Assembly: GCA_903930565.1 (NCBI GenBank)
Contig: CAIYZC010000621.1
Span: forward strand, 1 to 38,134
From: an uncultured Pedosphaera sp.
Lineage (GTDB): Bacteria > Verrucomicrobiota > Verrucomicrobiia > Limisphaerales > Pedosphaeraceae
Direction of reading: 5' to 3'
Length of the DNA: 38,134 bases
The notes beneath the pieces were generated by a model. It worked only from the letters and a program-made list of their open reading frames with translations, was not told where the DNA came from and searched no databases. Of this stretch, positions 5,445-31,006 are shown in pieces. The position numbers and the translations under genes were made by a program. Numbering within the stretch: position 1 is the stretch's first letter; every line of letters starts with the position of its first letter.

Positions 5445-6377
5445 ATGATCACGGAACATGCGACCGAGTGGCTCGGCTTTCCGGTGCGGCTGTTTGCGCC
5501 GGAGGAGGCCGGGGAGAAGCCCGTGGATTGGTCCCGCACCATTTTCCGTCTGGCATTGGATTGGGATGCCACGATGGATTTCACGGAATTGTTCGCCGCA
5601 TTCCTGGAGCAACCGGGGGTGGAGCAAACCCCGGCGATCGTTATCGGGAAGTTTTTTGCCGAATCCCCTGAAGACACCGCCGAAGAGGTCGTGGAGTCGT
5701 TGGTGACCGCCCGGGAATGCTTGCCGGCCCTGCGGGGGATTTTTCTCGGGGACCTGGTGAGTGAGGAATGCGAGGTTTCGTGGATCAACCAAACGGATGT
5801 CTCCCCCTTGTTCACGGCCTACCCCGGCTTGGAACATCTGCGGTTGCGGGGCACGAACCGCTTGAGCTTGGGCCGGCGCCCCCGGCACGCGCGGCTGCGC
5901 TCGCTCACGATTGAAACCGGCGGCCTGCCGCCGGCCTTGCTGGGCGAGGTGTTGGCGGGGGATTTCCCCGCCCTGGAAACGCTGGAACTTTGGCTCGGCA
6001 CGCCGAGCTATGGTGGCGACGTGACCCTGCTGGATCTGCAATCGCTGTTGTCCGGAAAATTGTTTCCCCGCCTGCGCCATTTGGGGTTGCGCGACAGTGA
6101 GCTGGCGGATGCCCTTGCCGCCGGTCTGGCTGGCGCGCCGATTTTGGAGCAGTTGGAGGGGTTGGATTTATCGCTGGGTAATTTGGGCGATGCGGGAGGC
6201 GCGGCGTTGCTGGCCAACCCGGCCCTGCGGCGGTTGCAGCGGTTGAATTTGCGCCATCATTACCTCTCGCCGCGCGTGGCGCGGGCGTTGCAACAGGCGC
6301 TGCCATTTGTGGATGTGGCCGAGGCGCAGGACAGCCAAACTCCGGAGGAGGATCGTTACGTCGCGGTGGGGGAATGA
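5445..6377 (+). CDS. STM4015 family leucine-rich repeat protein
   Basis: This 310-residue protein matches the STM4015 family. The start MITEHATEWLGFPVRLF and the segment RTIFRLALDWDA fit that family's N-terminal region. The second half is a run of leucine-rich repeats of the 'LExLDLSLGNLGDAGGAALL' type, about 25-28 residues per repeat, which usually form a protein-binding surface. No catalytic residues or signal peptide are seen, so a cytoplasmic partner or substrate-recognition role is inferred. I chose the ATG at 5445 over upstream in-frame Met codons because it yields the family N-terminus. Its 3' end overlaps the STM4014-like gene by up to 71 bases. Together with the hydrolase and radical SAM genes at 8863-11872 it completes the STM4011-4015 set. 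Confidence 0.85.
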   Translation: MITEHATEWLGFPVRLFAPEEAGEKPVDWSRTIFRLALDWDATMDFTELFAAFLEQPGVEQTPAIVIGKFFAESPEDTAEEVVESLVTARECLPALRGIFLGDLVSEECEVSWINQTDVSPLFTAYPGLEHLRLRGTNRLSLGRRPRHARLRSLTIETGGLPPALLGEVLAGDFPALETLELWLGTPSYGGDVTLLDLQSLLSGKLFPRLRHLGLRDSELADALAAGLAGAPILEQLEGLDLSLGNLGDAGGAALLANPALRRLQRLNLRHHYLSPRVARALQQALPFVDVAEAQDSQTPEEDRYVAVGE

Positions 6378-7566
6378 CCCGGCGCCCGCCGAGTTCGCGC
6401 TCTTCTGCAATCCGGAATCGCGGCGCGTGGAAGGTTTCAGTCAAGCGCTGGGCCGACTCCGGCGTCAGCGTCCCCGGTTGGTGCCCTGGCTATGGGTGGC
6501 GGGCAGGGTGCCTTGGGAACACTTGCTTCCGGACGGTCTGCCGCATCTGCGGCTCGAATCGCCGGGTCGCAATTGGCCGGTGGAACAACAACTGCTCCTT
6601 CGCGGAGCGGATTTGGCGGAACCGGAGGGCGAAGGGCGGTGGCGCCGCTGGTCGGCCGGGGCGGTTGCGGCCCTGTCGCTTGACCCGGGGCGCGTGCTGC
6701 CGATGCGCCAATGGTTTTTGGGCTGGCGGGCAACTTTGGAGGAATTGACCGCGTGGGCGAACCGCACGGGCGGGGCCGGGCGTTGGTTGACGCCACCCGC
6801 CCAAGTGTTGCTCATGGGCGACAAGGCGGCTTGCCAAGCGGCCTTGGAGGGGGCGGGGGTGCCGGTGCCGCCCGCACTGGGGGTGCCGCGGGATTTTGAC
6901 GATCTGTGGGAACTCATGCGGCAGGCCGGCCGAAGCCGCGTGTTTCTCAAGCCATGTCACGGCTCCTCGGCTTCGGGCGTGGTGGCACTGGAGGCGGGGC
7001 GGGGCGGGGTGCAGGCGTTTTCCACCCTGGAATTGACCGCGGCGGAGGGGGAGGTGCGACTCTACAATCGGCGGCGGATTCAGGTGTGGCGCGGCCTGAC
7101 GGAAGTGCGGCGGTTGGTGTCGGCGGTGGTGGCGGAACGGTGTTTGGCGCAGGTGTGGGTGCCCAAGGCGGGGCTGGCCGGCGGTCCGTTCGACCTGCGC
7201 GTGGTGGTCATTGGCGGACGCGCCCGGCAGGTCATGGTCCGATTGGGCCGGGGGCCGCTGACCAATTCGCTGCTGGGGGGTGGCAAGGCCGAAGTCGCGG
7301 CGGTCCAGGAGCGCATGGGCCCGGCGGGCTGGGCGCGGTTGTTGACCGTATGCGAACAAACGATGGCGCGGGCGTTTCCGGGCGCGTTGTCCGCCGGCTT
7401 GGACGTGCTGGTGGAGCCGGATTTTCGCACGGTGCGCGTCCTGGAGGTGAACGCTTTTGGCGACCTGTTGCCGCGATTGTTGCACGAGGGCCGTGACACC
7501 TACTCCTGGGAAGTGTTGGCCGCCAACGGGGCCGCCCCGGCTCAGGTCTCCGCCACGGGCGCGTAA
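6307..7566 (+). CDS. STM4014 family ATP-grasp-like protein
   Basis: This protein has 419 residues if read from the ATG at 6307. The recognisable family region begins with FALFCNPESRRVEGF. ATP-grasp landmarks follow: DKAACQAALEGAGVPVP (start of the nucleotide-binding subdomain), VFLKPCHGSSASGVVAL with Lys215 and a glycine/serine loop, FDLRVVVIGG, and the C-terminal metal-binding VLEVNAFGD with Glu380 and Asn382. ATP-grasp enzymes couple ATP hydrolysis to carboxylate-amine or carboxylate-thiol ligation, but the substrates here are unknown. The N-terminus is uncertain. The only in-frame ATGs (6307, 6313) lie inside the upstream gene, while the ATG at 6374 that overlaps the upstream TGA is one frame off. 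The 3' end overlaps the convergent DUF6745-type gene by 25 bases. Confidence 0.82.
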   Translation: MWMWPRRRTAKLRRRIVTSRWGNDPAPAEFALFCNPESRRVEGFSQALGRLRRQRPRLVPWLWVAGRVPWEHLLPDGLPHLRLESPGRNWPVEQQLLLRGADLAEPEGEGRWRRWSAGAVAALSLDPGRVLPMRQWFLGWRATLEELTAWANRTGGAGRWLTPPAQVLLMGDKAACQAALEGAGVPVPPALGVPRDFDDLWELMRQAGRSRVFLKPCHGSSASGVVALEAGRGGVQAFSTLELTAAEGEVRLYNRRRIQVWRGLTEVRRLVSAVVAERCLAQVWVPKAGLAGGPFDLRVVVIGGRARQVMVRLGRGPLTNSLLGGGKAEVAAVQERMGPAGWARLLTVCEQTMARAFPGALSAGLDVLVEPDFRTVRVLEVNAFGDLLPRLLHEGRDTYSWEVLAANGAAPAQVSATGA

Positions 7567-8489
7567 AGTTTCGGATCGTCAAAACCGGCGGTCCAGGCCA
7601 CGGCGGCATGGCAACTGGTCATGGTGGGGGGCACCCGGACCAAGTAATGCCGGCCGGTGGAGGGGCAGTGCAGGGAGACCAGAACCAGCGGCTCATCGTT
7701 CGGAAGGTCCACGCGGTAGAGCCGCCGTTCGCCGCCCCGGTCCCGGTCGGTGTCGAGCACTGCTGCATTCACGGACCGCAGAAAGTGTTCCCGGCCGACG
7801 CGCTCGATCATGATCCGGCGCACTTCGGTGTTCCGCTCGGCCAGGATTACTTCGCCGGTCAGTGTTTCCGGGGCGAAGGCGATTTGCGGCGTCACCACGA
7901 CGCCGTTCCACCGCAAGCCCGCGTCGGCCAGCGAGGCCGGCAGGCGGGTGAGCCCCGTGCCGCCCACATCGACCCAGGAGCCTACGGTCACGCCCTCCGG
8001 GATCGACTTCAGCCGCGCGCAACCGCGCAGGTCCAGCGTGGAGAGCGGCCCGAGGCCGGGCGGCAGGGCGTCCAGTTCGACGCAGCCCCGCGCCCGGACC
8101 CAGCCGTGGGTCACGCGGGTGTCGGCCGGCCAGTCCCGCAGCGCGGTGCAACCCTCCAACCCCAGGAAATCCACGTGCAGGTCCCCCGGCAAGGCGGTGA
8201 GCTTCTGGCAGCGTGTCAGGAGCAGGGTGCCAATCCGCCAGCCGGGCGGGAGGACCGTGAGTTGCCGGCAATCCGTCAGCTCCAGCCGGTGGTCCACGCG
8301 CAAATCCGCCGGCAGGGTGGTGAGCGGTTGGCCGGTCAAATTGAGGGAATAACAATGCAACCCGGCGGGGAGCCGCACCGGTGGCCGCCCGGTTTGCCAG
8401 GTGAGATCCAGCACGCCGGTGGTGATTCCCGCGGGGGCGGTGCCGGCGGCGATCAAACGCGCCGCCTCGGGGGCTTTGAGCGTGGGCAT
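7542..8489 (-). CDS. Leucine-rich protein with C-terminal DUF6745-like domain
   Basis: This 315-residue protein has two parts. Residues about 1-200 are imperfect repeats of about 20 residues of the form L..LP..L.V...L.L..C..L, for example TTLPADLRVDHRLELTDC. They predict a short solenoid with many 'LP' turns. Residues about 205-310 resemble DUF6745, with NTEVRRIMIERVGREHFL, RRLYRVDLPNDEPLVLVSL and HYLVRVPPTMTSCHAAVAWT. The biochemical role of the family is unknown. The ATG lies 9 bases after the stop of the 110-residue gene upstream, so the two are surely co-transcribed. It is probably the last gene of the STM4013-4012-4011 operon. It is a second type of leucine-rich protein at this locus, not homologous to the STM4015-like one. 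Confidence 0.8.
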   Translation of the reverse strand: MPTLKAPEAARLIAAGTAPAGITTGVLDLTWQTGRPPVRLPAGLHCYSLNLTGQPLTTLPADLRVDHRLELTDCRQLTVLPPGWRIGTLLLTRCQKLTALPGDLHVDFLGLEGCTALRDWPADTRVTHGWVRARGCVELDALPPGLGPLSTLDLRGCARLKSIPEGVTVGSWVDVGGTGLTRLPASLADAGLRWNGVVVTPQIAFAPETLTGEVILAERNTEVRRIMIERVGREHFLRSVNAAVLDTDRDRGGERRLYRVDLPNDEPLVLVSLHCPSTGRHYLVRVPPTMTSCHAAVAWTAGFDDPKLYAPVAET

Positions 8490-8498
8490 CGGAATACC

Positions 8499-8831
8499 TT
8501 AGTCGCGCACCCGTTGATCGGCTCCGGGAATGTATTCGCGTTGGATGCGCACCTCATAAATCCCCCGCGGCAGGTCGATGGGGCCGTGCTCCTCGTGAAC
8601 GATCCTGGCGCTCCGGGCGGACACCTCCAAATACAACTGGAGTCCGGACCGGTACAGCTGCGCCGCCGCGGGGTCCGCGAGTCGATGCGCGTGGCCGGTG
8701 ACTTCCCCTTCGGCCAGCACCGGCGGGACCGCGGCGCGATACTTGGGCAAGGCCTCGGCGCGGGCAATGAGAAAGACATCCCCTTGCCGCCAAACTTTGG
8801 GCGGCTTTTTGGTGCGATTTAGGCCGAACAT
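8499..8831 (-). CDS. Small conserved protein paired with the DUF6745-like protein
   Basis: This 110-residue soluble protein has no signal peptide or membrane segment. Notable stretches are WRQGDVFLIARAEALP, VLAEGEVTGHAHRL with two His, and a C-terminal IVHEEHGPIDLPRGIYEVRIQREY, suggesting a compact all-beta fold. I recall similar small proteins beside DUF6745 genes in other bacteria, but that is memory, not a search result. Its function is unknown. It sits 9 bases upstream of the DUF6745-like gene and 31 bases downstream of the STM4011-like gene, in the same orientation. The conserved His/Glu residues could bind metal, which is speculation. Confidence 0.75.
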   Translation of the reverse strand: MFGLNRTKKPPKVWRQGDVFLIARAEALPKYRAAVPPVLAEGEVTGHAHRLADPAAAQLYRSGLQLYLEVSARSARIVHEEHGPIDLPRGIYEVRIQREYIPGADQRVRD

Positions 8832-8862
8832 GGGAGGAAATTAACCGATCCTGGCCGGCGGT

Positions 8863-9726
8863 TCAAGCGGGCGACGGAATGCGCTCCAACAAGCCCGCGC
8901 CGAAGACCTTTTCCAGCTCCAAATGTTCCAAGTGGGCATAGCCGATGTGGCAGCCGCAAGTCTCCGCGGGGCACGGACGGGGTTGCAGGCGCGCCGCAAA
9001 ATCGGGCGCGTAGATATTGCCGATGATGTCCCGGACGAAATGACACCGCCGCGCGTCCCCGGCGCCGTCCACGCTGAACACCGTGTGCCCGGTGCGGCAG
9101 GCCCGGCCCCGGCTGGCGTGGCGGCGATTGTTGAGCGGGAACCACGGGTCGAACGCGGTCAACCGGGCCAGTTCCCCCGCGGTGTAATAGTCGGGGGTGC
9201 GCTTGTAGGCGTTCACCCACACGTAGACCGCCGGCCGCAGGCGGTCCCGCAGCGGCGCCAGTTCCGCCAATGCCTCCCGCACCCCCACCACCCCCACGCT
9301 GTAGCGAATCCCCCGGGCGTCCAGCCGGTGGCATTGGCGTACGAACCGCTCCCGGTTCACCTCGGTGGGATGGAAGGTGCACCACAGGGCCAGCGTGGCG
9401 GGATTCGCGTCCGCCACCCAATCCAAGCGATGGGCAAGATTGGTTTGGATCGCCACCCGGCGAACGTTGCCAGTGTGGCTGAGGGCGGCCAAGGCTTGTT
9501 GGTAGTAACGGTGCCCGAGCGCCTCCCCCCAGGGGGTGAACAGAATGCCCAATTTCTCGGCCCGGCCGCCGGCCCAGGCCGCGAAGCGCGCGAGCCGCTC
9601 CGCGTCATCCCGCAGCTCGGCCGGCGTGTTCCGGGTCTTGGCGAAGGGACAGTAACCGCACGCGTAATTGCAACTGGAGAGCGGGCCGCGGTAGAGGATG
9701 GACCAATGGGCTGGCGGGGGCTTCAT
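8863..9726 (-). CDS. STM4011 family radical SAM protein
   Basis: This 287-residue radical S-adenosylmethionine enzyme has its 4Fe-4S cluster motif CNYACGYC at Cys19, Cys23 and Cys26. The barrel region GILFTPWGEALGHRYYQQAL supplies the SAM-binding 'GxE'-like part. The C-terminal third has further cysteines (RACRTGHTVFSVDGAG, RRCHFV, RPCPAETCGCHIGYAHLE), suggesting an auxiliary cluster or SPASM-like site. This length and pattern fit the STM4011 family. The substrate is unknown. Its ATG overlaps the stop of the STM4012-like gene in an ATGA junction (9723-9726), so the two are translationally coupled. It probably acts with that enzyme on a shared substrate. Confidence 0.88.
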   Translation of the reverse strand: MKPPPAHWSILYRGPLSSCNYACGYCPFAKTRNTPAELRDDAERLARFAAWAGGRAEKLGILFTPWGEALGHRYYQQALAALSHTGNVRRVAIQTNLAHRLDWVADANPATLALWCTFHPTEVNRERFVRQCHRLDARGIRYSVGVVGVREALAELAPLRDRLRPAVYVWVNAYKRTPDYYTAGELARLTAFDPWFPLNNRRHASRGRACRTGHTVFSVDGAGDARRCHFVRDIIGNIYAPDFAARLQPRPCPAETCGCHIGYAHLEHLELEKVFGAGLLERIPSPA

Positions 9727-11051
9727 CGCAATTCAAAACGGGCCATCTCCTCCCGGACGCGCGCCGACCACAACCACGGCCCGACCACGTCGGAGAACTC
9801 CAAACCCGCTTCGGTTAGTTGCAGTTTCCCCTCCTCCGCGCGGGCCCATCCCTCCGCCAACAGTTCGGCCAGTTCGGGGAAATCGGCGTCCGGTGTGGTG
9901 CCAAAAAAAGCCTGGTAGGCCGCGCGGTCCAATCCCTCCGCCCGCAATAAGGATTTGAGCACGTAGCGGCGTTGTTGTTCCTCCCGGTCCAGGGCGAAGC
10001 CGTAATCGACCCGGCTCATCTCCCGGCGGCTGCGTTGCAGGAAGTCCGCGATGACCGCGCCCACTCCCGCCCGCCCGACCGCGTACTCCGATGAGTAGTG
10101 GAGCGCCGTCGTGTAGGATCGCGCTCCGGGGCCCAGTCCCACCATCCCGTCTTCCTGGCAGCAGTACACCGGCCCTTCGGCGGGTTGGTAATCCTCCCGG
10201 CGGAACAACCGCAGGGAGATTTGCCGATAACCCTGCTCCCGGAGGTAATCCCGTCCTTGGCGGTACAACGCCAGGCGTTCGTCAGTGGGACGGTGACCGC
10301 GGCGGTCCAGGCCGGTCAAAGGCCGGACATACAGCGGGTATAAGTAAATCTCCTGTGGCGCCACGGCCAGGGCTTCATCCAGGGAGGTTTGCCAGGAGCC
10401 GGGCGTTTGCCCGGGCATGCCGTAGATGAGATCCACGTTCAGGCAGGGAAACTTCGCGGCCGCGAGTAGTTCCAAGGCGCGCCGGGCGTTGGCCACGGTC
10501 TCCGGGCGGCCCAGGGCGCGCAATTCCGCGGGGACGAAACTTTGCACCCCCAGGCTCACCCGCGTGAAGCCCAGTGACCGTAATTGCGCAATTTTCTCCG
10601 CGCCCACCGTTCCCGGGGAGGCCTCGATCGCGCGCGGCAAAGGCTCCTCCGCCGCGCCGAAGTGCCCCCGCAGGATGCCATCCAGGCGTGCCAATTCCGG
10701 ACCCGTCAGAAAGCTGGGCGTGCCTCCGCCAATGGCCACCCGTGCCACCCGGGCCGCGCCGCCCAAGGCTTCAGCGACCGCTTCCGCCTGTCGTTCCAGG
10801 GCGTCCAGGTACCGGCCCACCAGCCCGGCGCCGGGGGACGTGGTGGTGAAGAGGTTGCAGAACCCGCACCGGGCCTCGCAAAACGGCGCATGGACGTATA
10901 AGAACAACGCGGAGCGATCCTCTCCGGACCAGACTTCCGCCAGTTCGCGCGGCGGCTGGAGCCGGCGGTAGGCGGTCTTGTGGGGGTAGGCGTAGGCGTA
11001 CGCTTGGAACCGTCCCCCGGAGGCGGCCCATTCGCGCAAGGTGCGGCTCAT
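9723..11051 (-). CDS. STM4012 family radical SAM protein (HemN-like)
   Basis: This 442-residue HemN-related radical SAM protein matches the STM4012 family. The start MSRTLREWAASGGRFQAYAYAYPHK is typical of it. The cluster motif CEARCGFC lies at Cys58, Cys62 and Cys65 within YVHAPFCEARCGFCNLFTTT. The fourth cysteine of true HemN/HemW (CxxxCxxCxC) is replaced by Leu (CNLF). Further HemN-like features are the SAM-binding IGGGTPSFL, FTRVSLGVQSF and NVDLIYGMPGQT. The ATG at 11051 is chosen because it forms an ATGA overlap with the STM4013-like stop; a longer in-frame reading to 11234 merely overlaps that gene. It is probably not a coproporphyrinogen dehydrogenase, because it sits in a five-gene locus of unrelated enzymes. 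Confidence 0.88.
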   Translation of the reverse strand: MSRTLREWAASGGRFQAYAYAYPHKTAYRRLQPPRELAEVWSGEDRSALFLYVHAPFCEARCGFCNLFTTTSPGAGLVGRYLDALERQAEAVAEALGGAARVARVAIGGGTPSFLTGPELARLDGILRGHFGAAEEPLPRAIEASPGTVGAEKIAQLRSLGFTRVSLGVQSFVPAELRALGRPETVANARRALELLAAAKFPCLNVDLIYGMPGQTPGSWQTSLDEALAVAPQEIYLYPLYVRPLTGLDRRGHRPTDERLALYRQGRDYLREQGYRQISLRLFRREDYQPAEGPVYCCQEDGMVGLGPGARSYTTALHYSSEYAVGRAGVGAVIADFLQRSRREMSRVDYGFALDREEQQRRYVLKSLLRAEGLDRAAYQAFFGTTPDADFPELAELLAEGWARAEEGKLQLTEAGLEFSDVVGPWLWSARVREEMARFELR

Positions 11052-11872
11052 GGGTGACCGGCTGGCGCCGTGAGGGGCAGCAACATCTCGCCATACGGAA
11101 CCGTCCACACCACCGGATGCCCCTGGCGGTGGCCGTGCCGCCCCCCTTCGCCGTAAAGGGTGCCGTGGTCGGAAGTGACGATCGCAAAAGTGGGCCGCGG
11201 CCGGCGGGCGAGCCCGGCCTCCAGCACCGGCCATTGGCTGTCCACATAGCGCAGGGCCGCCGCGTGGCTTTCCCGGCTGTCGCTTGTCGCGCCCGGCAGG
11301 TAAAAGTAATTGGGTTGATGCAGGGCGGAGAGATTGATGAAGAGAAAAAGCGGGCGCGGGTCCGGCGCTGCCAGCCGCTCCGCCGCAAACTCAAACTGAT
11401 GGCGGGTTGATTCCGGGTCCGTGACGCCGAAGCGCTCCTCCCAATAAGCTTCCTCGAACAAACCCGGCAACACCCGGCCCAGGGGATTGCGCAGGTTGAA
11501 GAACCCGACCCCGCCGATGCATACGGTCCGCCACCCTTCCTGCCGCAGGCCCGTCACCAGGTCCGGCGCGTCAAACACCTTGGTGCCCGGGCCGGTGGTT
11601 TCACTGCCCGCAAACCGGGCGGCGAACAAACGGGTGGGGTTGGCACCGGGGGCCGCCGGGGTGGGGAGGTAACCGGCGAAAAAGGCTTGATGCGCCGCGT
11701 AGGTGAAACTGCCCGGCGTGTGCCGCTCTTCCCAGCCCGCCGGCAGACGCCGGGCCAGGTGGGGCGTCCCCCCGCCCCGCCATTCGGCCACCGCCACGTC
11801 ATAACGCAAGGTGTCGAGCACGATCAGGAGCAGATCGTGGTGGCGGCAAAGCTCCGGCAGGTCGCGGTGCAT
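11048..11872 (-). CDS. STM4013/SEN3800 family hydrolase (alkaline phosphatase superfamily)
   Basis: This 274-residue member of the alkaline phosphatase/sulfatase-like superfamily matches the STM4013/SEN3800 family. The metal-binding start is DLLLIVLDTLRYDVA with Asp20. The segment GSFTYAAHQAFFAGYLPTP carries the Thr/Ser nucleophile region, and TSDHGTLYGEGGRHGH with later HP provides the C-terminal Asp/His metal ligands. No signal peptide is seen with the start at 11872. The in-frame Met at 11950 would only add an unconserved 26-residue extension. It is the first gene of the minus-strand STM4013-4012-4011 operon and is joined to the next gene by an ATGA overlap. It lies 89 bases downstream of rex on the same strand. 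Confidence 0.85.
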   Translation of the reverse strand: MHRDLPELCRHHDLLLIVLDTLRYDVAVAEWRGGGTPHLARRLPAGWEERHTPGSFTYAAHQAFFAGYLPTPAAPGANPTRLFAARFAGSETTGPGTKVFDAPDLVTGLRQEGWRTVCIGGVGFFNLRNPLGRVLPGLFEEAYWEERFGVTDPESTRHQFEFAAERLAAPDPRPLFLFINLSALHQPNYFYLPGATSDSRESHAAALRYVDSQWPVLEAGLARRPRPTFAIVTSDHGTLYGEGGRHGHRQGHPVVWTVPYGEMLLPLTAPAGHP

Positions 11873-11961: not shown

Positions 11962-12606
11962 TTACCCTTGGATGAAGTAACTGAGATTTTCCAACTCGAT
12001 GGCCAGGTTGACGTTGTTGACCATGACGTCCTCAGGAACGTGGAGCACGAGGGGGGCGAAATTCAGGATGCCGGTCACTCCTGCTTTGACCAGGCGGTTG
12101 GTGACTTCCTGGGCGGAGGGGGCGTCGACGGTCAGAATGGCCATGCGCACGCCGCGGTCGTGGATAATGGCCTCCAGTTCGTCCATGCCCAGGAGGGGTT
12201 GGTCGGGCTTTTTGTCGCGTTTGCGCAGGGGATCGATATCGAAGGCGGCGATGATTTCAAAGCCTTCCTTTTCAAATCCTCGGTAGGAGAGCAGCGCCAA
12301 GCCCAGGTTGCCGACCCCCACGAGGACCACGGGTTGCAGGCTCTTGGTGCCCAACTGCGCCGAGATCATCTGGAACAACTCCTCGACCTCGTAGCCCAAG
12401 CCGCGGGTGCCGAACTGGCCGAAATAGGTCAAATCCTTGCGCAACTGCGTGGATTTCACCCCCGCCACTTTGGCGAGCGCCTCGCTGGAAACGGTGCGCA
12501 GGCCATTCTCCCGCAGGCGGGCCAGGCAGCGTGAGTAAATGGAGAGACGATAGATCGTCTTGCGCGGTATTTCAGGGCGGTCCGGTTTTTTCAAGCTGCG
12601 GAACAA
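11962..12606 (-). CDS. rex: Redox-sensing transcriptional repressor Rex
   Basis: Rex is a DNA-binding sensor of the NADH/NAD+ ratio that represses fermentation and respiration genes when NADH is low. The 214-residue protein has the family winged-helix N-terminus (KTIYRLSIYSRCL, VSSEALAKVAGVKSTQLRKDLTYFGQFGTRGLGY). A Rossmann domain follows, with VVLVGVGNLGLALLSYRGF and FDIDPLRKRDK, and the C-terminal helix ends NLAIELENLSYFIQG, the domain-swap helix. The start codon appears to be TTG at 12606, since no ATG precedes the conserved region in frame. A second TTG lies at 12594. I found no clear Rex operator (TTGTGA-N6-TCACAA type) nearby. Confidence 0.93.
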   Translation of the reverse strand: MFRSLKKPDRPEIPRKTIYRLSIYSRCLARLRENGLRTVSSEALAKVAGVKSTQLRKDLTYFGQFGTRGLGYEVEELFQMISAQLGTKSLQPVVLVGVGNLGLALLSYRGFEKEGFEIIAAFDIDPLRKRDKKPDQPLLGMDELEAIIHDRGVRMAILTVDAPSAQEVTNRLVKAGVTGILNFAPLVLHVPEDVMVNNVNLAIELENLSYFIQG

Positions 12607-22288: not shown

Positions 22289-22523
22289 CCGGACGGGGCA
22301 CTGTTCCGAATTTCCCAGTGCGCCCAAAACGCGGCAGCGTTTGGCGCAACCGGGGTGGGAAGCACCGCCGGGGGCGGGGAGCGAATCCCACCGGGGTCGA
22401 ACTTTGCAGCGTCGCGCAAGGATTGCCCGCCCGGGCGCGCACTCCGGCACGATAGTTGCTTGATGGCTGGCGGAATTACTTGATTCGGATAACTCGGATG
22501 TATCTAGGCGTGGAAACCGGTTG

Positions 22524-24089
22524 ATGAAACTCAGCAATTACGAAGTCGGGAACTTCTTTGACGAGATGTTCGGCGAGGACGGCCGACCGCGGGTGGCAGC
22601 GCGTCCATTGGCAAAAAAAATCGAATCCCTCCCCATGGGCGAACTGTTCAACCGCCAGCAGGCGGCGGATCGCGCCTTGGTGCAGGCGGGGATCACGTTC
22701 AACGTGTATGGCGAGAGCGAGGGGGTCGAAAAAACCCTTCCGTTCGATCTGGTGCCCCGGATCGTGCCTTCCGCGGAGTGGGACCGCATCGAACGCGGGC
22801 TGAAGCAGCGCATTCGGGCGCTGAACATGTTCATCGACGACTTGTACCACGACCAGCGCATCATCAAGGACGGGGCGGTGCCCGACCATATCGTGTCCAC
22901 GTCGAAAGGGCTTCGGGCGCCGTGCATCGGCCTCAATCCCCCGCGCGGCATTTGGTGCCACATCACGGGAACGGATTTGGTGCGGCACAGCGATGGCGAG
23001 ATTTACGTCCTGGAGGACAATCTGCGCTGTCCCTCGGGCGTTTCCTATGTGCTGGAAAACCGGCGCTTGATGAAGAGCCTGTTTCCCGAAGTGTTTGAAG
23101 CTTCCCGCATCCGGCCGGTGTCGAACTATCCCATCCGGCTGCGCGACATGCTGGAATACCTCGCGCCCGAAGGCGTCACCACCCCGCGGGTGGTGGTGCT
23201 CACGCCGGGCGTGTTCAATTCCGCGTACTTCGAGCACTCCTTCCTCGCCCAGCAAATGGGGGTGGAACTGGTCGAAGGCGGCGATTTGGTGGTGTCCGAC
23301 GGTTACGTGTGGATGAACACCACCAACGGTTTCGAGCGCGTGGACGTCATTTACCGCCGCATCGACGACGATTTTCTGGATCCCGAGACCTTCCGGGCGG
23401 ATTCCATGTTGGGCGTTCCGGGGCTGATGAAAGTTTACCAGGCCGGCAACGTCGCCTTGGCCAACGCCCCGGGCAGCGGGGTCGCGGATGACAAAGTGGT
23501 CTACGCCTACGTGCCGCGGATCATCAAGTACTACTTGGGCGAGGACATCATCCTGCCCAATGTGCCCACCTACATCTGCGCCGAACCGGCCGACTTCAAG
23601 TACGTGCTGGAGCACTTGCCGGAACTCGTCGTGAAAGCCGCCAATGAATCGGGCGGTTACGGCATGTTGATCGGCCCGCATTCCACCGCCGCCCAGCGGG
23701 AGGAATTCGCGCGCCGCATCACCGCCAACCCGCGCAATTATATCGCCCAACCCACGCTGTCCCTTTCGCGGGTGCCCACCTTGGTGGACGGGCATTTGGA
23801 GGGCCGGCATGTGGATTTGCGGCCTTATATCCTCTATGGCAAAGACATCTTCGTGCTGCCCGGCGGCCTGACCCGCGTGGCGCTCAAGAAAGGCTCCTTG
23901 GTGGTCAATTCCTCCCAAGGCGGCGGCACCAAGGACACTTGGGTGCTGGCCGACAGCCCCGCCACGCTGGCGGCGGACGAAATGGTCCCCGGCGCGGCCC
24001 AAAACCAAGGCCAAAGCCAGAGTCAGAGTCAAAGCCAATTTCAAACCGAAACCCCCAGCGCCACCCAGGTGGCAGGAGCCAGCGCCTAA
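22524..24089 (+). CDS. Circularly permuted type 2 ATP-grasp protein
   Basis: This 521-residue circularly permuted ATP-grasp protein (DUF404/DUF407 type) is predicted to ligate amino acids or peptides. Key parts are ITFNVYGESEG, the metal-binding VLEDNLRCPSGVSYVLENR (Glu164, Asn166), VVVLTPGVFNSAYFEHSFLA, FERVDVIYRRIDDDFLDP, and ELVVKAANESGGYGM with Lys371 and a Gly-rich loop. QGGGTKDTWVL follows near the end. The last 40 residues are a low-complexity Gln/Ser tail (GQSQSQSQSQFQ). The ATG at 22524 is used, with a TTG directly before it. Its stop overlaps the alpha-E gene start by one base (TAATG). It heads the 12.8-kb ATP-grasp/alpha-E/transglutaminase run. Confidence 0.93.
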   Translation: MKLSNYEVGNFFDEMFGEDGRPRVAARPLAKKIESLPMGELFNRQQAADRALVQAGITFNVYGESEGVEKTLPFDLVPRIVPSAEWDRIERGLKQRIRALNMFIDDLYHDQRIIKDGAVPDHIVSTSKGLRAPCIGLNPPRGIWCHITGTDLVRHSDGEIYVLEDNLRCPSGVSYVLENRRLMKSLFPEVFEASRIRPVSNYPIRLRDMLEYLAPEGVTTPRVVVLTPGVFNSAYFEHSFLAQQMGVELVEGGDLVVSDGYVWMNTTNGFERVDVIYRRIDDDFLDPETFRADSMLGVPGLMKVYQAGNVALANAPGSGVADDKVVYAYVPRIIKYYLGEDIILPNVPTYICAEPADFKYVLEHLPELVVKAANESGGYGMLIGPHSTAAQREEFARRITANPRNYIAQPTLSLSRVPTLVDGHLEGRHVDLRPYILYGKDIFVLPGGLTRVALKKGSLVVNSSQGGGTKDTWVLADSPATLAADEMVPGAAQNQGQSQSQSQSQFQTETPSATQVAGASA

Positions 24090-25069
24090 TGTTAAGCCGC
24101 GTAGCCGATTCAATTTATTGGATGAGCCGTTACGTCGAACGCGCGGAAAATGTCGCGCGTATCGTCGATGTGAACCTCAACATTTTGTTGGACTCCACGA
24201 TGGCGGACCAACAATGGCAACCCTTGGTGAACATCACCGGCGACCACGAGGACTTCGCCAAGCGCTACCAAGTGGCGAACCAGCACACCGTGCTGCAATT
24301 CCTCACGTTTGACCGCGACAACCCGAATTCCATCCTCTCCTGCCTGCGCTCCGCGCGGGAAAACGCCCGCTCGGTCCGCGAGATCATTTCCTCCGAGATG
24401 TGGCTGCAACTCAACCAGTTTTACCTCACGGTGAAAGCGGCCGCGGAGAGCGGACGCGGGCTGGATTCGCCGCACGAATTTTTCACCAACGTCAAACTCT
24501 CCAGTCATCTCTTTACAGGTCTGACCGACGCGACGATGACCCACGGGGAGGGGTGGCACTTCTCCCGCCTCGGGCGCAAGTTGGAACGTGCCGACAAGAC
24601 TTCGCGCATTTTGGACGTGAAGTATTTCATCCTGCTGCGTTCGGTGGCGGATGTGGGCACGCCCTTCGATGACGTGCAGTGGGCGGCGGTGCTGCGGTCT
24701 TCGAGCGCGTTCGAGATGTACCGGAAACGCCACGGCCGCATCGCGCCGAAGCTCATCGTGGAGTTCCTGCTGTTGGACAGCGAATTCCCGCGGGCCATCC
24801 GGTACTGCTTGAACGCAGCCCGGGACTCGTTCCACGCCATTTCGGGCACGCCGATCGGCACGTATCGCAAACCCGCCGAAAAACTCCTCGGCCAATTGTG
24901 CTCGGACCTGGCCTACGCCACGATCGACGACGTGATGGGCGAAGGGCTGCACGAATACCTCGACACGCTGCAATCCAAGATGAATCTCGTGAGCCTCGGC
25001 ATTCACGAACGGTTCTTCGCCAAACGGGTGCCGGAGACCCGCCACTCTTCGATGGAGAAAATGCAGTAA
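24089..25069 (+). CDS. Alpha-E domain protein
   Basis: This 326-residue protein is almost entirely the alpha-helical alpha-E domain (DUF403). It opens MLSRVADSIYWMSRYVERAENVARI, the family hallmark, and includes GWHFSRLGRKLERADKTSRILD and RFFAKRVPE near the end. The domain is always linked with circularly permuted ATP-grasp proteins and transglutaminases and is thought to assist the ligase; its chemistry is not established. It starts on the last base of the upstream stop (TAATG), so translation is coupled. The transglutaminase-DUF2126 gene follows after 30 bases. Confidence 0.94.
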   Translation: MLSRVADSIYWMSRYVERAENVARIVDVNLNILLDSTMADQQWQPLVNITGDHEDFAKRYQVANQHTVLQFLTFDRDNPNSILSCLRSARENARSVREIISSEMWLQLNQFYLTVKAAAESGRGLDSPHEFFTNVKLSSHLFTGLTDATMTHGEGWHFSRLGRKLERADKTSRILDVKYFILLRSVADVGTPFDDVQWAAVLRSSSAFEMYRKRHGRIAPKLIVEFLLLDSEFPRAIRYCLNAARDSFHAISGTPIGTYRKPAEKLLGQLCSDLAYATIDDVMGEGLHEYLDTLQSKMNLVSLGIHERFFAKRVPETRHSSMEKMQ

Positions 25070-25099
25070 ACCGCGGTGCCCGATTTTTCGAACTTTCCC

Positions 25100-28000
25100 A
25101 TGGCCATTCACGTCGCCCTCAACCACAAGACCCACTACCGGTACGACCGTCCCGTTTCACATTCGCCGCATGTGATCCGCCTCCGGCCGGCCCCCCATTG
25201 CCGGACGCCGATCCTGAGTTACTCGCAGCGCATCCTGCCCAAGCAACACTTTTTGAACTGGCAGCAGGACCCCTTCAGCAACTACCTGGCCCGCTTGGTG
25301 ATTCCGGACAAAACCCGGGAACTGTTGGTGGAAGTGGATTTGGTGGCGGAAATGGCCGTGTACAATCCTTTCGATTTCTTCCTGGAGGAAAGCGCGGAGA
25401 AGTGCCCCTTTACCTATGAAGCGCACCTCAAAAAGGAGCTGGCCCCCTTCCTTGAAGCGCTTCCCGCTGGTCCGAAAGTGTTGGAGTACCTCCACACCAT
25501 CGACCTCACCCCCATCCGCACGATTGATTTTCTGGTCCGCATCAACCAGCGCTTGTGCAACGACATCCGGTACACGATCCGCTTGGAGCCCGGCGTGCAA
25601 ACGCCCGAACGCACCCTCGAACTGCGCTCCGGCTCCTGCCGGGACACCGGGTGGCTGCTCGTGCAATTGCTGCGCCATCTCGGCCTGGCCGCCCGGTTCG
25701 TTTCCGGCTACCTCATCCAACTCAGCCCGGATGTCAAGGCGCTCGACGGCCCTTCGGGGACGGAAGTGGACTTCACCGACCTGCACGCGTGGACGGAAGT
25801 TTATCTGCCGGGAGCGGGCTGGATCGGGATCGACCCGACCTCCGGTTTGTTCGCCGGGGAAGGCCACATTCCGCTGGCCTGTTCGCCCGATCCCATGGGC
25901 GCCGCGCCGGTGACCGGCGGGGTGGACAAGTGCGAGACCAACCTCGAGCACACCATGACCGTGACGCGCATTTACGAATCCCCGCGCGTGACCAAGCCTT
26001 ACACCGAGGAGCAATGGCAGTCCATTGAGGCGCTCGGTCACCAGGTAGACCGCGATCTGCGCCAGGGCGACGTGCGGCTGACCATGGGGGGCGAGCCGAC
26101 CTTTGTCTCCATCGACAACATGGACGGCGAGGAATGGAATTTCACGGCCCTGGGACCCGAAAAGCGCAAGCTCTCCGGACAACTTTTGCGCCGGCTGAAG
26201 CAAAAATTCGGCCCCGGCGGCTTGTTGCATTTCGGCCAGGGCAAGTGGTACCCCGGAGAATCCCTGCCCCGGTGGGCGCTCTCGTGCTATTGGCGGCGGG
26301 ACGGCCAGCCGATCTGGCACAACGAAGCGCTGATCGCGCCGGACAACGCGAACCTGGGGCACACGCCCCGCGACGCCGAGCGGTTCGTGCAAGGACTGGC
26401 CACGCAGTTGGGGCTGCCGAATGAGCACATCATGCCGGCCTTCGAGGACGTGTGGTATTACCTCTGGCGCGAGCGCAAATTGCCCGGCAACGTCGATCCC
26501 TTGGATGCGCGGCTGGACAACAAAGAGGAACGTCGGCGTCTGGCGAAGGTTTTTGAACAGGGTCTCGACCGTGTCATCGGCTACGTGTTGCCCGTTCGCC
26601 GCGGCGAAGGCAACCAAGCGCGTTGGGTGTCCAGTTCCTGGTTCCTGCGCCGGGAGCATTTGTTCCTGGTCCCGGGGGATTCCCCGATTGGTTTGCGTCT
26701 GCCCTTGGATTCACTCCCTTGGGTGGCGGAGACTGATTACCCGCACCTGCATCAACCGGACCCGATGGACAAGCAGGCGCCGTTGCGGCGCGTGCTTGTC
26801 TCCGGCAAGGCGCGCACCCCCGGCGAACGCCCGGTCGAAGGCCCCCTGGTCAACGCCCCGGCGCCCTTCGCGTCGGCCAAGGGCATCACTCGCACCGCGT
26901 TGTGCGTCGAACCGCGCGGCGGTCAGCTCTATATTTTCATGCCCCCGGTGAGCACCACCGAGGATTACCTCGAATTGATCAGCGCGGTCGAACAGGTGGC
27001 CGAAGCCCTGAAACTGCCGATCATGATCGAGGGCGGCACCCCGCCGCACGACGACCGGCTCAACCACGTCAAGGTCACGCCGGACCCGGGAGTCATCGAG
27101 GTCAACCTGCATCCCGCCGCGGGTTGGGATGAACTGGTGGCCAACACGACGACCTTGTACGAAGAAGCGCGCCTCTCGCGCCTCGGTACGGAAAAGTTCA
27201 TGATCGACGGCCGCCACGTGGGCACCGGGGGCGGCAACCATGTCGTGATCGGCGGGCCGACCGCGGGCGACAGTCCGATTTTGCGCCGGCCCGACTTGCT
27301 GGCCAGCATGCTGGCCTTCTGGCAGAACCACCCTTCGCTCTCCTTCCTGTTCAGCGGCCTGTTCATCGGGCCGACGAGCCAGCATCCGCGCGTGGACGAG
27401 GCCCGGGACGACACGTTGTACGAATTGGAACTCGCCCTCCGGCAGTTGCCCAAGCAGACCGCGGCGCCGCCCTGGCTCGTGGACCGGTTGTTTCGCAACC
27501 TCCTCATCGACACGACCGGCAACACGCACCGGACGGAGTTTTGCATCGACAAGTTGTTCTCCCCGGAAGGCTCCACGGGCCGGTTGGGCTTGGTGGAATT
27601 GCGGGCCTTTGAAATGCCGCCGCACGCCCGCATGAGCCTGACCCAGCAACTGCTGTTGCGCAGCCTCATCGCGCGCTTCTGGCGCGCCCCCTACCAGCAG
27701 AAGTTGGTCCGGTGGGGCACGGAACTGCACGATCGCTTCATGCTGCCGCATTTTGTGGAGCAGGATTTCCGCGAGGTCATCGAAGATCTGGCCGCCCACG
27801 GCTACCCGCTCCAGCCGGAGTGGTTCGCGCCCCATCTGGAGTTCCGGTTCCCGGTGTACGGCAGCATCGCCCACCGCGGAGTGCATTTGGAAATTCGCCA
27901 AGCCCTCGAACCCTGGCATGTGCTGGGCGAGGAAGGATTCGCCGGGAGCACCGTGCGCAATGTCGATTCCTCGTTGGAACGGTTGCAAGTCAAAGTGCGC

Positions 28001-28396
28001 GGCTTGGTGGACACCCGCCACACGGTCACGTGCAACGGCCGCGCCGTGCCCTTGCACCCGACGGGCACGCGGGGCGAGTTCGTCGCCGGCGTGCGTTACC
28101 GCGCCTGGCAGCCGCCCGAGTGCCTGCATCCGTACATCGGGGTTCATTCGCCGCTCACCTTCGACATTTTGGACGGTTGGAACCGCCGGTCGATCGGCGG
28201 CTGCACCTATCATGTCACGCACCCCGGCGGTTTGAGCCATGTGAAGCTGCCGGTGAACGCCTACGAGGCGGAGAGCCGGCGTCTGGCCCGTTTCCTCGCC
28301 CAGGGGCACACTCCGGGCACCTTCACGCCGCCCCCCGTGGTCCGAACGGCGGAAGCGCCGTTCACCTTGGATTTGCGCGGGAGTGGGTTGCCGTAA
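25100..28396 (+). CDS. Transglutaminase-like/DUF2126 fusion protein
   Basis: This 1098-residue protein opens with the bacterial transglutaminase N-terminal beta domain (MAIHVALNHKTHYRYDRPV). A transglutaminase/protease-like core follows, with the catalytic triad visible as Cys180 (RSGSCRDTG), His229 (DLHAWTEVY) and Asp245 (GIDPTSG). The rest (about 320-1090) is DUF2126, beginning near LTMGGEPTFVSIDNMDGEEWN and including HVGTGGGNHVVIGGPTAGDSPIL and SLSFLFSGLFIGPTSQHPR. Such fusions accompany ATP-grasp/alpha-E genes and may cut or rearrange the isopeptide or peptide bonds these make. I chose the ATG at 25100; a GTG at 25076 is also in frame. No signal peptide is seen. Confidence 0.94.
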   Translation: MAIHVALNHKTHYRYDRPVSHSPHVIRLRPAPHCRTPILSYSQRILPKQHFLNWQQDPFSNYLARLVIPDKTRELLVEVDLVAEMAVYNPFDFFLEESAEKCPFTYEAHLKKELAPFLEALPAGPKVLEYLHTIDLTPIRTIDFLVRINQRLCNDIRYTIRLEPGVQTPERTLELRSGSCRDTGWLLVQLLRHLGLAARFVSGYLIQLSPDVKALDGPSGTEVDFTDLHAWTEVYLPGAGWIGIDPTSGLFAGEGHIPLACSPDPMGAAPVTGGVDKCETNLEHTMTVTRIYESPRVTKPYTEEQWQSIEALGHQVDRDLRQGDVRLTMGGEPTFVSIDNMDGEEWNFTALGPEKRKLSGQLLRRLKQKFGPGGLLHFGQGKWYPGESLPRWALSCYWRRDGQPIWHNEALIAPDNANLGHTPRDAERFVQGLATQLGLPNEHIMPAFEDVWYYLWRERKLPGNVDPLDARLDNKEERRRLAKVFEQGLDRVIGYVLPVRRGEGNQARWVSSSWFLRREHLFLVPGDSPIGLRLPLDSLPWVAETDYPHLHQPDPMDKQAPLRRVLVSGKARTPGERPVEGPLVNAPAPFASAKGITRTALCVEPRGGQLYIFMPPVSTTEDYLELISAVEQVAEALKLPIMIEGGTPPHDDRLNHVKVTPDPGVIEVNLHPAAGWDELVANTTTLYEEARLSRLGTEKFMIDGRHVGTGGGNHVVIGGPTAGDSPILRRPDLLASMLAFWQNHPSLSFLFSGLFIGPTSQHPRVDEARDDTLYELELALRQLPKQTAAPPWLVDRLFRNLLIDTTGNTHRTEFCIDKLFSPEGSTGRLGLVELRAFEMPPHARMSLTQQLLLRSLIARFWRAPYQQKLVRWGTELHDRFMLPHFVEQDFREVIEDLAAHGYPLQPEWFAPHLEFRFPVYGSIAHRGVHLEIRQALEPWHVLGEEGFAGSTVRNVDSSLERLQVKVRGLVDTRHTVTCNGRAVPLHPTGTRGEFVAGVRYRAWQPPECLHPYIGVHSPLTFDILDGWNRRSIGGCTYHVTHPGGLSHVKLPVNAYEAESRRLARFLAQGHTPGTFTPPPVVRTAEAPFTLDLRGSGLP

Positions 28397-28428
28397 GTGG
28401 TTCGCTAGGCTAGGCTTGCGCGAGCACG

Positions 28429-31002
28429 ATGAACGCACCAACGCCCACGCAGTCCCAGTCCCAGTCTACCGGCCGCCCGGTGGCCCCCGCGCCCCCCGAT
28501 GAGGGGGGCGCGTTGCCCGGCATTTTCACGGGCTACGCCCCGCGGCCCGGGGGCTATGACGAGCTGACCGATCAGCGCGGGGGGGTGCGGCCGCATTGGC
28601 GTTCGCTGGTGTCTTCCCTCGACCGGTTGGGCCATGAAGAGCTCACCTTGCGTTGGGACAACGCCCGGCGGATCATCCGGGAGCACGGGGTCACATACAA
28701 CATTTACGGCGACCCCCAGGGCATGGACCGCCCGTGGGAGCTGGACATGCTGCCGCTGGCCATCCAGCCCGCCGAATGGCACGCCATCGAAGCCGGTCTC
28801 GCCCAGCGCGCCCGCCTGCTAAACCTGGTCTTGGCGGATGTCTACGGGCCCCAGCGGTTGCTGCGCGAGGGGCACCTGCCGCCCGCCTTGGTGCAGGCCA
28901 ATCCCGGCTTTCTCCGCCCCTGCCACGGCCTGCCCATGCGCGGCAATATTCATCTCCATTTCCACGCCGCGGACTTGGCGCGCGCGGCCACCGGCCAATG
29001 GTGGGTGATCGCGGACCGCACCCAGGCTCCTTCCGGCGCCGGCTACGCCTTGGAAAACCGGATCGTGCTGTCCCGCATCCTCCCCGAAGAATTTCGTGAC
29101 TGCCAGGTGGAGCGGCTGGCTTCTTTCTTCCGCACCATTCGCGCCACTCTCCGTTCCTTGGCGCCGTTGAACCCCGACAACCCCAGCGTCGTGTTGCTCA
29201 CCCCGGGGCCGTACAACGAAACGTATTTCGAGCACGATTACCTCGCGCGCTACCTCGGCTTCACCTTGGTGGAGGGCGGCGACTTGACGGTGCGCGACGA
29301 AAAGGTGTTCATCAAGACCTTGGAGGGTCTGCGGCCGGTGGACGTGATTCTCCGCCGCGTGGATGACAATTTTTGCGATCCCTTGGAACTGCGCGGGGAC
29401 TCCTTTCTGGGCGTGGCCGGCTTGGTGCAGGCCGTGCGGGCGGGAAATGTGACCGTGGCCAACGCCCTGGGCTCCGGCCTCATCGAAGGGGCCGCCTTTT
29501 TGCCCTTCCTGCCCGGGCTCTGTCGCCACCTGTTGGACGAGGACTTGAAGTTGCCCTCGGTCGCGACCTGGTGGTGCGGCCAGCCCAAGGAGCGCGCTTA
29601 CGTCCTGGAACATCTGGACGAACTGGTCATCAAACCCGCTTTCCGCTCCGGTTCCCAGCAGCCGCTCTTCGGCGCCCGCCTGAACGCCGCACAACGCGCC
29701 AAGCTGGTGGCCGCCATCCGGGAGCAGCCGGAAAATTTCGTGGGCCAGGAGCGCGTCGCGCTCTCCACCGCCCCGGTGTGGGGTCACCATCATGCCGAAC
29801 CCCGGCCCCTCGTACTCCGCACCTACGCCACCGCCGCCACCGCGGATTCTTTCTCGGTCATGCCCGGCGGCCTCACGCGGATTTCCCCCTCCGCCGAGGA
29901 TCCCGTGGTGTCGATGCAGAGCGGGGGCGGCAGCAAGGATACGTGGGTGCTTTCCGAGGGGCCTGTCAGCCCCGTCTCCCTACTCTCCTCGCGCGGCCAG
30001 CCGTTGATGAGCGCCGGTCCCTCCGCCGCCGAACTCCCCAGCCGCGTCGCGGACAATCTGTTCTGGCTCGGCCGCTACGTCGAACGTCTGGAGGGCACCC
30101 TGCGCATGTTGCGTTGCATCGTGCTCCGCCTCTCGGGTGAGGCGGGGGCGGACGGCTCGGCCGAACTCACCGCCCTGGCGCAAACCTTGGTGCGGCGCCA
30201 GTTGCTGCCCGACCGGTTCCTCGGGCGCGTGCCCTTGAAGGATCTCGAACATGAGATTCTGTTCCTGATCTACAAGCCGGAGCGCCTCGACAGCGCCCGG
30301 CAAATCCTGGCCAGCGTCCGCGGCATCGCTTCCATCGTCCGCGACCGGTTCTCCTTCGACACCTGGTCCATTCTCAACAAGTTGAACATCGACGGCCGCG
30401 CCCGGCCGCGCCGCATCCCGCTGGCGGAAGCGCTGGCGATGCTCAACACAATCATCTTGGACCTCTCCGCCTTCAGCGGTTTGGAAATGGAGAACATGAC
30501 CCGCGGCTTGGGCTGGCGCTTCCTGGATTTGGGCCGCCGTTTGGAGCGGTCCATGCAGCTCGCCCGGTTGCTGCGCTGCGCGTTCCCGCCCGGGGTCCGT
30601 CCGGGGCTGTTGTTGGAACCTCTGCTGGAAATCTGCGACAGCCTGATGACCTATCGCCGGCGGTATTTTTCCGGGGTGCAACTCGGCTCGGTGCTCGAAC
30701 TTCTGGTGTGCGATCCCGGCAACCCCCGTGGCTTTGCCTTTCAAATCGAGGCCTTGGCGGCGCACGCCGAAAACCTGCCCCGCGAGGCCGCCACGCCCGG
30801 GGGCACCACCGAGGAACGCCGGGTCGCCGGCCTGCTGCTGCGCCTGCGGGCGGCGGATGTCAAAGGACTCGGCGGTCCGCCGGACGGCGCGCCCGATGAG
30901 GGGCTCGCCACCCTGCTTGACGATTTCCAAGTCGAGCTGGGCCTGCTCTCGAACCAATTCAGCCATCACTATTTCAGTCACACCGTTTACCGGGTCAGTT
31001 GA
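28429..31002 (+). CDS. Circularly permuted ATP-grasp/alpha-E fusion protein
   Basis: This 857-residue fusion carries a circularly permuted ATP-grasp domain (about residues 60-510) and a C-terminal alpha-E domain (about 535-857, starting SRVADNLFWLGRYVERLEG). It is a diverged second copy of the two separate proteins at 22524-25069. The site VLEDNLRCPSG of the first copy is VIADRTQAPSG here (Ala195, Arg197), losing the Glu and Asn expected to bind metal. The Gly-rich ESGGYG loop after the conserved Lys (Lys402) is RSGSQQ. The ADRTQAPSG pattern also occurs, as I recall, in other proteins of this fused subfamily. The N-terminus contains a Gln/Ser tract (TPTQSQSQS). The transglutaminase gene follows after 4 bases. 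Confidence 0.93.
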   Translation: MNAPTPTQSQSQSTGRPVAPAPPDEGGALPGIFTGYAPRPGGYDELTDQRGGVRPHWRSLVSSLDRLGHEELTLRWDNARRIIREHGVTYNIYGDPQGMDRPWELDMLPLAIQPAEWHAIEAGLAQRARLLNLVLADVYGPQRLLREGHLPPALVQANPGFLRPCHGLPMRGNIHLHFHAADLARAATGQWWVIADRTQAPSGAGYALENRIVLSRILPEEFRDCQVERLASFFRTIRATLRSLAPLNPDNPSVVLLTPGPYNETYFEHDYLARYLGFTLVEGGDLTVRDEKVFIKTLEGLRPVDVILRRVDDNFCDPLELRGDSFLGVAGLVQAVRAGNVTVANALGSGLIEGAAFLPFLPGLCRHLLDEDLKLPSVATWWCGQPKERAYVLEHLDELVIKPAFRSGSQQPLFGARLNAAQRAKLVAAIREQPENFVGQERVALSTAPVWGHHHAEPRPLVLRTYATAATADSFSVMPGGLTRISPSAEDPVVSMQSGGGSKDTWVLSEGPVSPVSLLSSRGQPLMSAGPSAAELPSRVADNLFWLGRYVERLEGTLRMLRCIVLRLSGEAGADGSAELTALAQTLVRRQLLPDRFLGRVPLKDLEHEILFLIYKPERLDSARQILASVRGIASIVRDRFSFDTWSILNKLNIDGRARPRRIPLAEALAMLNTIILDLSAFSGLEMENMTRGLGWRFLDLGRRLERSMQLARLLRCAFPPGVRPGLLLEPLLEICDSLMTYRRRYFSGVQLGSVLELLVCDPGNPRGFAFQIEALAAHAENLPREAATPGGTTEERRVAGLLLRLRAADVKGLGGPPDGAPDEGLATLLDDFQVELGLLSNQFSHHYFSHTVYRVS

Positions 31003-31006
31003 CACC

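Follow-up and report, generated by a model that had tools for sequence, protein, structure and literature searches.

In the LysW/LysX systems of lysine and arginine biosynthesis, known also from amino-group carrier protein (AmCP) natural products, the ligase LysX forms a bond between the substrate's amino group and the γ-carboxyl group of Glu54, the C-terminal residue of LysW, and the substitution E54A abolishes the function of ArgW (PMC10433800). RimK lengthens the C-terminus of ribosomal protein S6 with glutamate (PMC10092738). Here we compare with these systems a locus in contig CAIYZC010000621.1 (38,134 nt; this whole stretch is referred to as the window) from an uncultured Pedosphaera sp. 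(GCA_903930565.1), which, as a preliminary description of this DNA had claimed, encodes members of all five STM4011-STM4015 families (STM401x) at positions 5445-11872; each is above its curated NCBIfam cut-off. The leucine-rich repeat (LRR) protein STM4015 ends in a conserved tail with a terminal Glu, and STM4014, encoded next to it, is structurally akin to LysX, ArgX and RimK. We propose that STM4015 is a covalent substrate or carrier, that STM4014 loads its terminal Glu and that two radical S-adenosylmethionine (SAM) enzymes modify the load; the probability of this explanation as a whole is put at about 0.55.

The C-terminal tail of STM4015 and the ligase STM4014

The proposed carrier and its ligase are encoded by the following features of the window.

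5445..6377, plus strand: STM4015 family protein, with LRR domain, acidic linker and C-terminal tail (NF038076, 314.7 bits; cut-off 275)
6324..6374, plus strand: acidic linker and conserved tail of STM4015 (...EEDRYVAVGE-stop), the proposed attachment site being the terminal Glu, E310
6313..7566, plus strand: STM4014 family ATP-grasp ligase, start codon uncertain (NF038074, 309.1 bits; cut-off 175)

The start of STM4014 is uncertain because the in-frame ATG (6313) falls within STM4015; the ATG at 6374, which overlaps the STM4015 stop codon, is out of frame. STM4015 is present as a single copy in its own genome. Among the STM4015 C-termini listed, a variable linker with a high content of Asp and Glu comes after the LRR domain, and the tail [WY]R[YF][VI]xV[SGAT]E-stop completes the protein. 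Of 68 non-redundant STM4015 proteins 67 have Glu as their last residue, the lone exception being a paralogue that is lengthened by a few residues ('AVSEYLQD') and lies beside three intact copies. In the same 68 proteins one of [SGAT] is found at position -2 in 65 and Tyr or Phe at position -6 in 61, and the acidity of the linker is 38% compared to a background of 16%. Each of the tail positions -7 to -1 has an information content of 1.6-3.9 bits, while most positions farther upstream have 0.3-1.2. E310 is invariant in an alignment of 35 STM4015 sequences, and the Glu is kept in the tails from Salmonella (MNAMYTE) and Bacteroides (YYPMITE).

A prospective set of STM4015 proteins, obtained later and from other genomic places, gave the same result, with 12 of 12 ending in [SGT]E; in total, the terminal Glu is present in 79 of the 80 proteins checked. 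Two LRR homologues that were found with the same profile in the same genomes, and which are encoded away from STM4014, have other C-terminal ends. At two Planctomycetes loci a different, low-scoring LRR homologue (with a WGR domain in one case) precedes STM4014, and its last residue is still Glu. Tandem STM4015 paralogues, of which there are up to six copies, retain the tail. When the tail and its stop codon are written as a degenerate DNA pattern, the 6.6-Mb host genome contains a single match, at 6354-6377 in STM4015.

Two further observations concern the architecture of these proteins. At loci L057 and L034 some proteins in the STM4015 position have an N-terminal WGR domain ahead of the LRR. 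In Actinomadura (L102 and L092) five to six tandem STM4015 copies have divergent LRRs and the same tail, as if several carriers shared one ligase.

The profile of STM4014, built from 45 sequences, finds LysX (1uc8, 3vpd) and RimK (5zct, 4iwx) as the best PDB sequences (E 3e-8 to 1e-5). The LysX stretch DIRVFVV...RRSAHWITN aligns with the invariant residues D269, R271, R285, T292 and N293 of STM4014, and K146, K188, R271, E353 and N355 are invariant in the 45 sequences. The predicted model of STM4014 has a predicted local distance difference test (pLDDT) score of 92.4, and its top Foldseek matches are LysX, LysW-bound ArgX, PsnB, MdnB and RimK, with the graspetide ligases PsnB and MdnB ranking just behind LysX/ArgX. 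The eight best VIA-align rows are all LysX, ArgX or RimK (Z 22.1-22.9 over 262-274 residues, root-mean-square deviation 2.7-3.1). RimK R189 and N262, for which contacts to the last bound Glu are reported (PMC10092738), align with R271 and N355 of STM4014; such positions are common among ATP-grasp ligases. STM4014 scores below the cut-offs of both TIGR02144 (19.6 bits vs 275.6) and the RimK family TIGR00768 (23.5 bits vs 143.4), and its relation to LysX/ArgX is one of profile and fold, not of equivalog. The grouping of STM4014 with the ATP-grasp ligases of peptide and protein carboxylates is supported.

Gene content, order and distribution of the locus

The remaining genes of the locus are all on the minus strand.

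7542..8489, minus strand: LRR and DUF6745 protein, recurrent accessory (PF20530, 71.3 bits; cut-off 27)
8499..8831, minus strand: p110, an all-beta protein of 110 amino acids, recurrent accessory, with no Pfam or NCBIfam match
8863..9726, minus strand: STM4011 family radical SAM enzyme with CxxxCxxC and C-terminal cysteines, SPASM-like (NF038073, 381.4 bits; cut-off 200)
9723..11051, minus strand: STM4012 family HemN-like radical SAM enzyme (NF006067, 558.4 bits; cut-off 380)
11048..11872, minus strand: STM4013 family alkaline-phosphatase-superfamily hydrolase (NF038075, 364.0 bits; cut-off 250; PF00884 also above its cut-off)

The preliminary description correctly placed two of the five STM401x genes on the plus strand and three on the minus strand, the latter coupled by overlaps, which are of 4 nt at both junctions (STM4013/STM4012 at 11048-11051 and STM4012/STM4011 at 9723-9726). 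It overlooked the two minus-strand genes between STM4014 and STM4011, encoding the DUF6745-LRR protein and p110; as both lie inside the cluster, the locus in the window comprises seven genes.

In STM4011, C19, C23 and C26 as well as C210, C228, C252, C257 and C259 are invariant in seven diverse sequences, and its C-terminal region matches that of SkfB, the maturase of the sporulation killing factor peptide. The PDB relatives of STM4012 are HemN (1olt) and the methyltransferase NocN (9p2u). Both enzymes resemble radical SAM enzymes that act on peptides. STM4013 has sulfatases and phosphodiesterases as PDB relatives, and the ligands of the alkaline phosphatase superfamily (D20, D235, H236 and H248) are invariant in 30 sequences, as is Thr57 in the nucleophile region, the nucleophile being assigned by motif reasoning rather than from a structure. 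A formylglycine (FGly)-type sulfatase was rejected, since the invariant residue of the nucleophile region is Thr57 and not Cys or Ser; a phosphatase-type or phosphoryl-transfer role is therefore more likely, and the Thr suggests phosphate-ester rather than FGly sulfate chemistry.

Gene order was counted in the window and 88 other loci. STM4015 lies directly before STM4014 in all 67 loci that have both, STM4013 before STM4012 in 73 of 77 and STM4012 before STM4011 in 84 of 85. The genes thus form two modules, STM4015-STM4014 and STM4013-4012-4011, the relative orientation of which varies; in the window they face each other. That the five genes co-occur elsewhere, as the preliminary description had supposed, is borne out by 62 of the 75 loci of at least 12 kb, in which all five are present, a degree of clustering that exceeds chance. 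For eight loci with the radical SAM genes and no STM4014 or STM4015 nearby, the whole genomes were searched: STM4014 is encoded elsewhere in seven of them and was not found in one, and all eight have a match to STM4015 or an LRR protein. A recognisable STM4015/STM4014 pair is present in six of these genomes and an LRR gene beside STM4014 in one.

The STM4011 cut-off was passed in only 3 of 289 genomes sampled from the phylum of the host. Relatives are encoded by at least 538 candidate stretches of the GTDB species genomes, and the best 80 of these loci belong to Verrucomicrobia, Planctomycetes, Chloroflexi, Acidobacteria, Bacteroidetes, Cyanobacteria, Myxobacteria, Actinobacteria, Proteobacteria and further groups; copies on plasmids extend the list to Deinococcus, Methylobacterium, Paenibacillus, Salmonella and Bacteroides. 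Within phyla the system occurs only sporadically, yet it spans at least nine of them (Verrucomicrobia, Planctomycetes, Actinobacteria, Myxobacteria, Cyanobacteria, Bacteroidetes, Deinococcus, Chloroflexi and Proteobacteria, including Salmonella), a pattern that suggests that it spreads horizontally and that its product is useful. A megablast search of 5,426 Escherichia coli genomes gave no match to the Salmonella cluster, and E. coli was rejected as a natural host.

Two kinds of extra gene recur. The p110 and DUF6745 genes share a cluster in 29 of 75 loci, including the window and its Verrucomicrobium relatives, and the pair recurs beside STM401x in several phyla. A gene for a HAD phosphatase (Pfam Hydrolase/HAD_2) is present in 24 loci, often between STM4014 and STM4013; it is found together with the p110-DUF6745 pair in only three (Fisher p 0.002, with ancestry uncontrolled). 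The pair also occurs without STM401x, in nearly all of the 80 IMG/VR contigs retrieved with p110 (L107-L186), as well as in Microcystis phages and on a Deinococcus ficus plasmid with no STM401x nearby. The p110 protein corresponds to PHROG 27831, the function of which is unannotated, and R15, G17, D18, G42, T45, G46, H49, H79, E81, H82 and the terminal D110 are invariant in 66 sequences. Its predicted model is all-beta (pLDDT 89.7) and has no PDB match at E < 0.001 (best VIA Z 3.1); p110 resembles only viral proteins of undescribed function (best E 6.8e-6). Both p110 and DUF6745 have C-terminally anchored ends, that of p110 being invariably Asp. Either protein as the substrate of STM4014 was set aside, because many phage contigs carry the pair and no STM4014 was seen within ~6 kb.

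Several observations were made on the accessory genes and on the rest of the window. The p110 and DUF6745 genes are a common two-gene module of phages, and several phage DUF6745 proteins hold simple repeats, e.g. DSVWDSVRASV. A VWA-domain protein is encoded near the pair on two Deinococcus plasmids (L016 1183-3201 and L021 9363-11222), once with and once without STM401x. In the window, a gene for a Rex-like redox-sensing repressor (Put_DNA-bind_N and CoA_binding; 11962-12606) lies directly upstream of STM4013 on the same strand and adjoins two genes for oxygen-sensitive enzymes. A dense plus-strand cluster at 22521-31906 encodes two circularly permuted ATP-grasp proteins and Alpha-E domains, together with a transglutaminase-DUF2126 amidoligase fusion and a second transglutaminase, and represents a second peptide-bond-forming neighbourhood ~11 kb from the STM401x genes.

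A proposed carrier mechanism and its alternatives

The view that these genes encode peptide or cofactor modification machinery holds in kind, by virtue of the ligase kinship of STM4014 and of the matches of STM4011 to SkfB and of STM4012 to HemN and NocN. The part given to the LRR protein in the preliminary description, that of a recognition scaffold, is probably wrong or incomplete: given the conserved C-terminal Glu tail, STM4015 is probably a substrate or carrier. In the proposed mechanism the LRR domain would be the carrier body, and the flexible acidic linker would present the tail R-[YF]-[VI]-x-V-[SGAT]-Glu. STM4014, as an enzyme of the LysX/RimK type, would turn the terminal Glu into an activated acyl phosphate for ligation to an amine, most likely an amino acid. 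The SPASM-like STM4011 and the HemN-like STM4012 would subsequently modify either the tethered group or the tail next to it, and STM4013, plus the HAD phosphatase where present, would take phosphate off an intermediate; the p110/DUF6745 pair would be accessory. The part of this model that we infer most firmly is that the C-terminus of STM4015 is the site at which STM4014 reacts. Least certain are what the load is and what becomes of the product: the pathway might end in the release of a small molecule or in a lasting modification of STM4015. More tentative is the wider claim of a previously unrecognised class of carrier-protein biosynthesis, in which LRR proteins would act as amino-group-type carriers; an ATP-grasp ligase would load their C-terminal Glu, and two radical SAM enzymes would assemble on them a metabolite or cofactor that spans phyla.

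Several points weigh against the carrier mechanism. The strength of the tail and the STM4014 profile score are uncorrelated across 66 loci (rho 0.08, p 0.53). Other ATP-grasp families, of the PurK type and glutathione synthetase, start at Z 21.2 compared to 22.9, and with so small a margin the substrate cannot be told from the fold alone, which lends support rather than proof. No release peptidase is conserved in the neighbourhood when the open reading frames (ORFs) of at least 100 amino acids are clustered. We infer, rather than observe, that anything is ligated to STM4015; the phosphatase step is deduced from gene content, and the tail might serve for docking instead.

The tail is short, terminal and found in tandem copies, and so could itself be the core peptide of a system akin to those for ribosomally synthesised and post-translationally modified peptides, in which the radical SAM enzymes would cross-link or modify its Tyr, Val or Glu and STM4014 would form an internal amide or ester, as in graspetides. 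Such a role would agree with the likeness of STM4011 to SkfB and with the rank of PsnB and MdnB just behind LysX/ArgX. The tail has no conserved Ser, Thr or Lys nucleophile, however, position -2 being S, G, A or T, and position -6 may be Phe as well as Tyr, which does not match the chemistry that is usual for graspetides or for Tyr. Genes for a protease or for leader binding do not recur around STM401x either. We consider a core-peptide role unlikely. As to a separate precursor peptide, none of the recurrent ORFs of at least 100 amino acids looks like one, those under 100 being unclustered.

Less probable again is a lasting modification as in RimK regulation, whereby STM4014 would add amino acids to the tail and so tune the binding of the LRR, with no small molecule released. 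RimK is an equally close structural relative of STM4014 (Z 22.8), several divergent LRR copies share one tail and no release enzyme is conserved, all of which would be expected; two radical SAM enzymes and an alkaline-phosphatase-superfamily hydrolase that strictly co-occur with the pair would be left unexplained. LRR domains usually bind partners, and the hydrophobic residues of the tail show more conservation than is required of a mere flexible tether, but a tail that merely recruits STM4014 or the radical SAM enzymes, with STM4014 acting on a free small molecule or on an LRR-bound external client as in the earlier scaffold idea, is the least probable of the three, because a Glu that is exactly terminal in 79 of 80 proteins and the LysX/RimK kinship point to the C-terminus as the reaction site and the tail pattern is on no other protein of the genome. 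An anti-phage defence system was rejected, as the PADLOC models gave one weak partial match (29 bits), to the HemN-like protein.

Comparison with known systems

The genes in the window are members of the NCBIfam families STM4011-STM4015, whose records give no function and omit p110 and DUF6745. Neither a functional description of the STM401x system nor a hypothesis on its function was found in the literature searched, which was mostly without subscription journals, and this is consistent with the earlier statement that no product is known. The system is thus confirmed and widespread, and none of the sources searched describes its function; with STM4015 as a probable substrate and one predicted residue, five undescribed genes become directly testable.

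The pearlins, which include 3-thiaglutamate and 3-thiahomoleucine, are similar in that small-molecule chemistry, including a radical SAM step, takes place on the C-terminus of a carrier (PMC9303977); their loading is tRNA-dependent and carried out by PEARL enzymes, whereas STM401x has an ATP-grasp ligase. RimK shares with STM4014 the ATP-grasp fold and is a ligase that acts on a protein C-terminus with glutamates (PMC10092738), but STM4014 has a dedicated LRR partner and radical SAM partners and no ribosomal protein.

LysW/LysX is alike in that an acidic C-terminus that ends in Glu (EDWGE in LysW) is paired with a neighbouring ATP-grasp ligase, and it is LysX/ArgX that STM4014 matches best by profile and fold. 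The terminal Glu and the LysX-related ligase are thus both present in STM401x, while the small zinc-binding EDWGE domain is not: the carrier here would be an LRR protein of ~310 amino acids with the tail R[YF][VI]xV[SGAT]E, in contrast to the ~54-residue zinc protein LysW. The partners also differ, being two radical SAM proteins and an alkaline-phosphatase-superfamily hydrolase, and no other gene like those of the lys pathway recurs around STM401x. If the proposal is true, LRR proteins would join the known carriers of covalently tethered biosynthesis. Compared with these systems, STM401x is best read as carrier-protein biosynthesis of a new variety, with a directly testable site.

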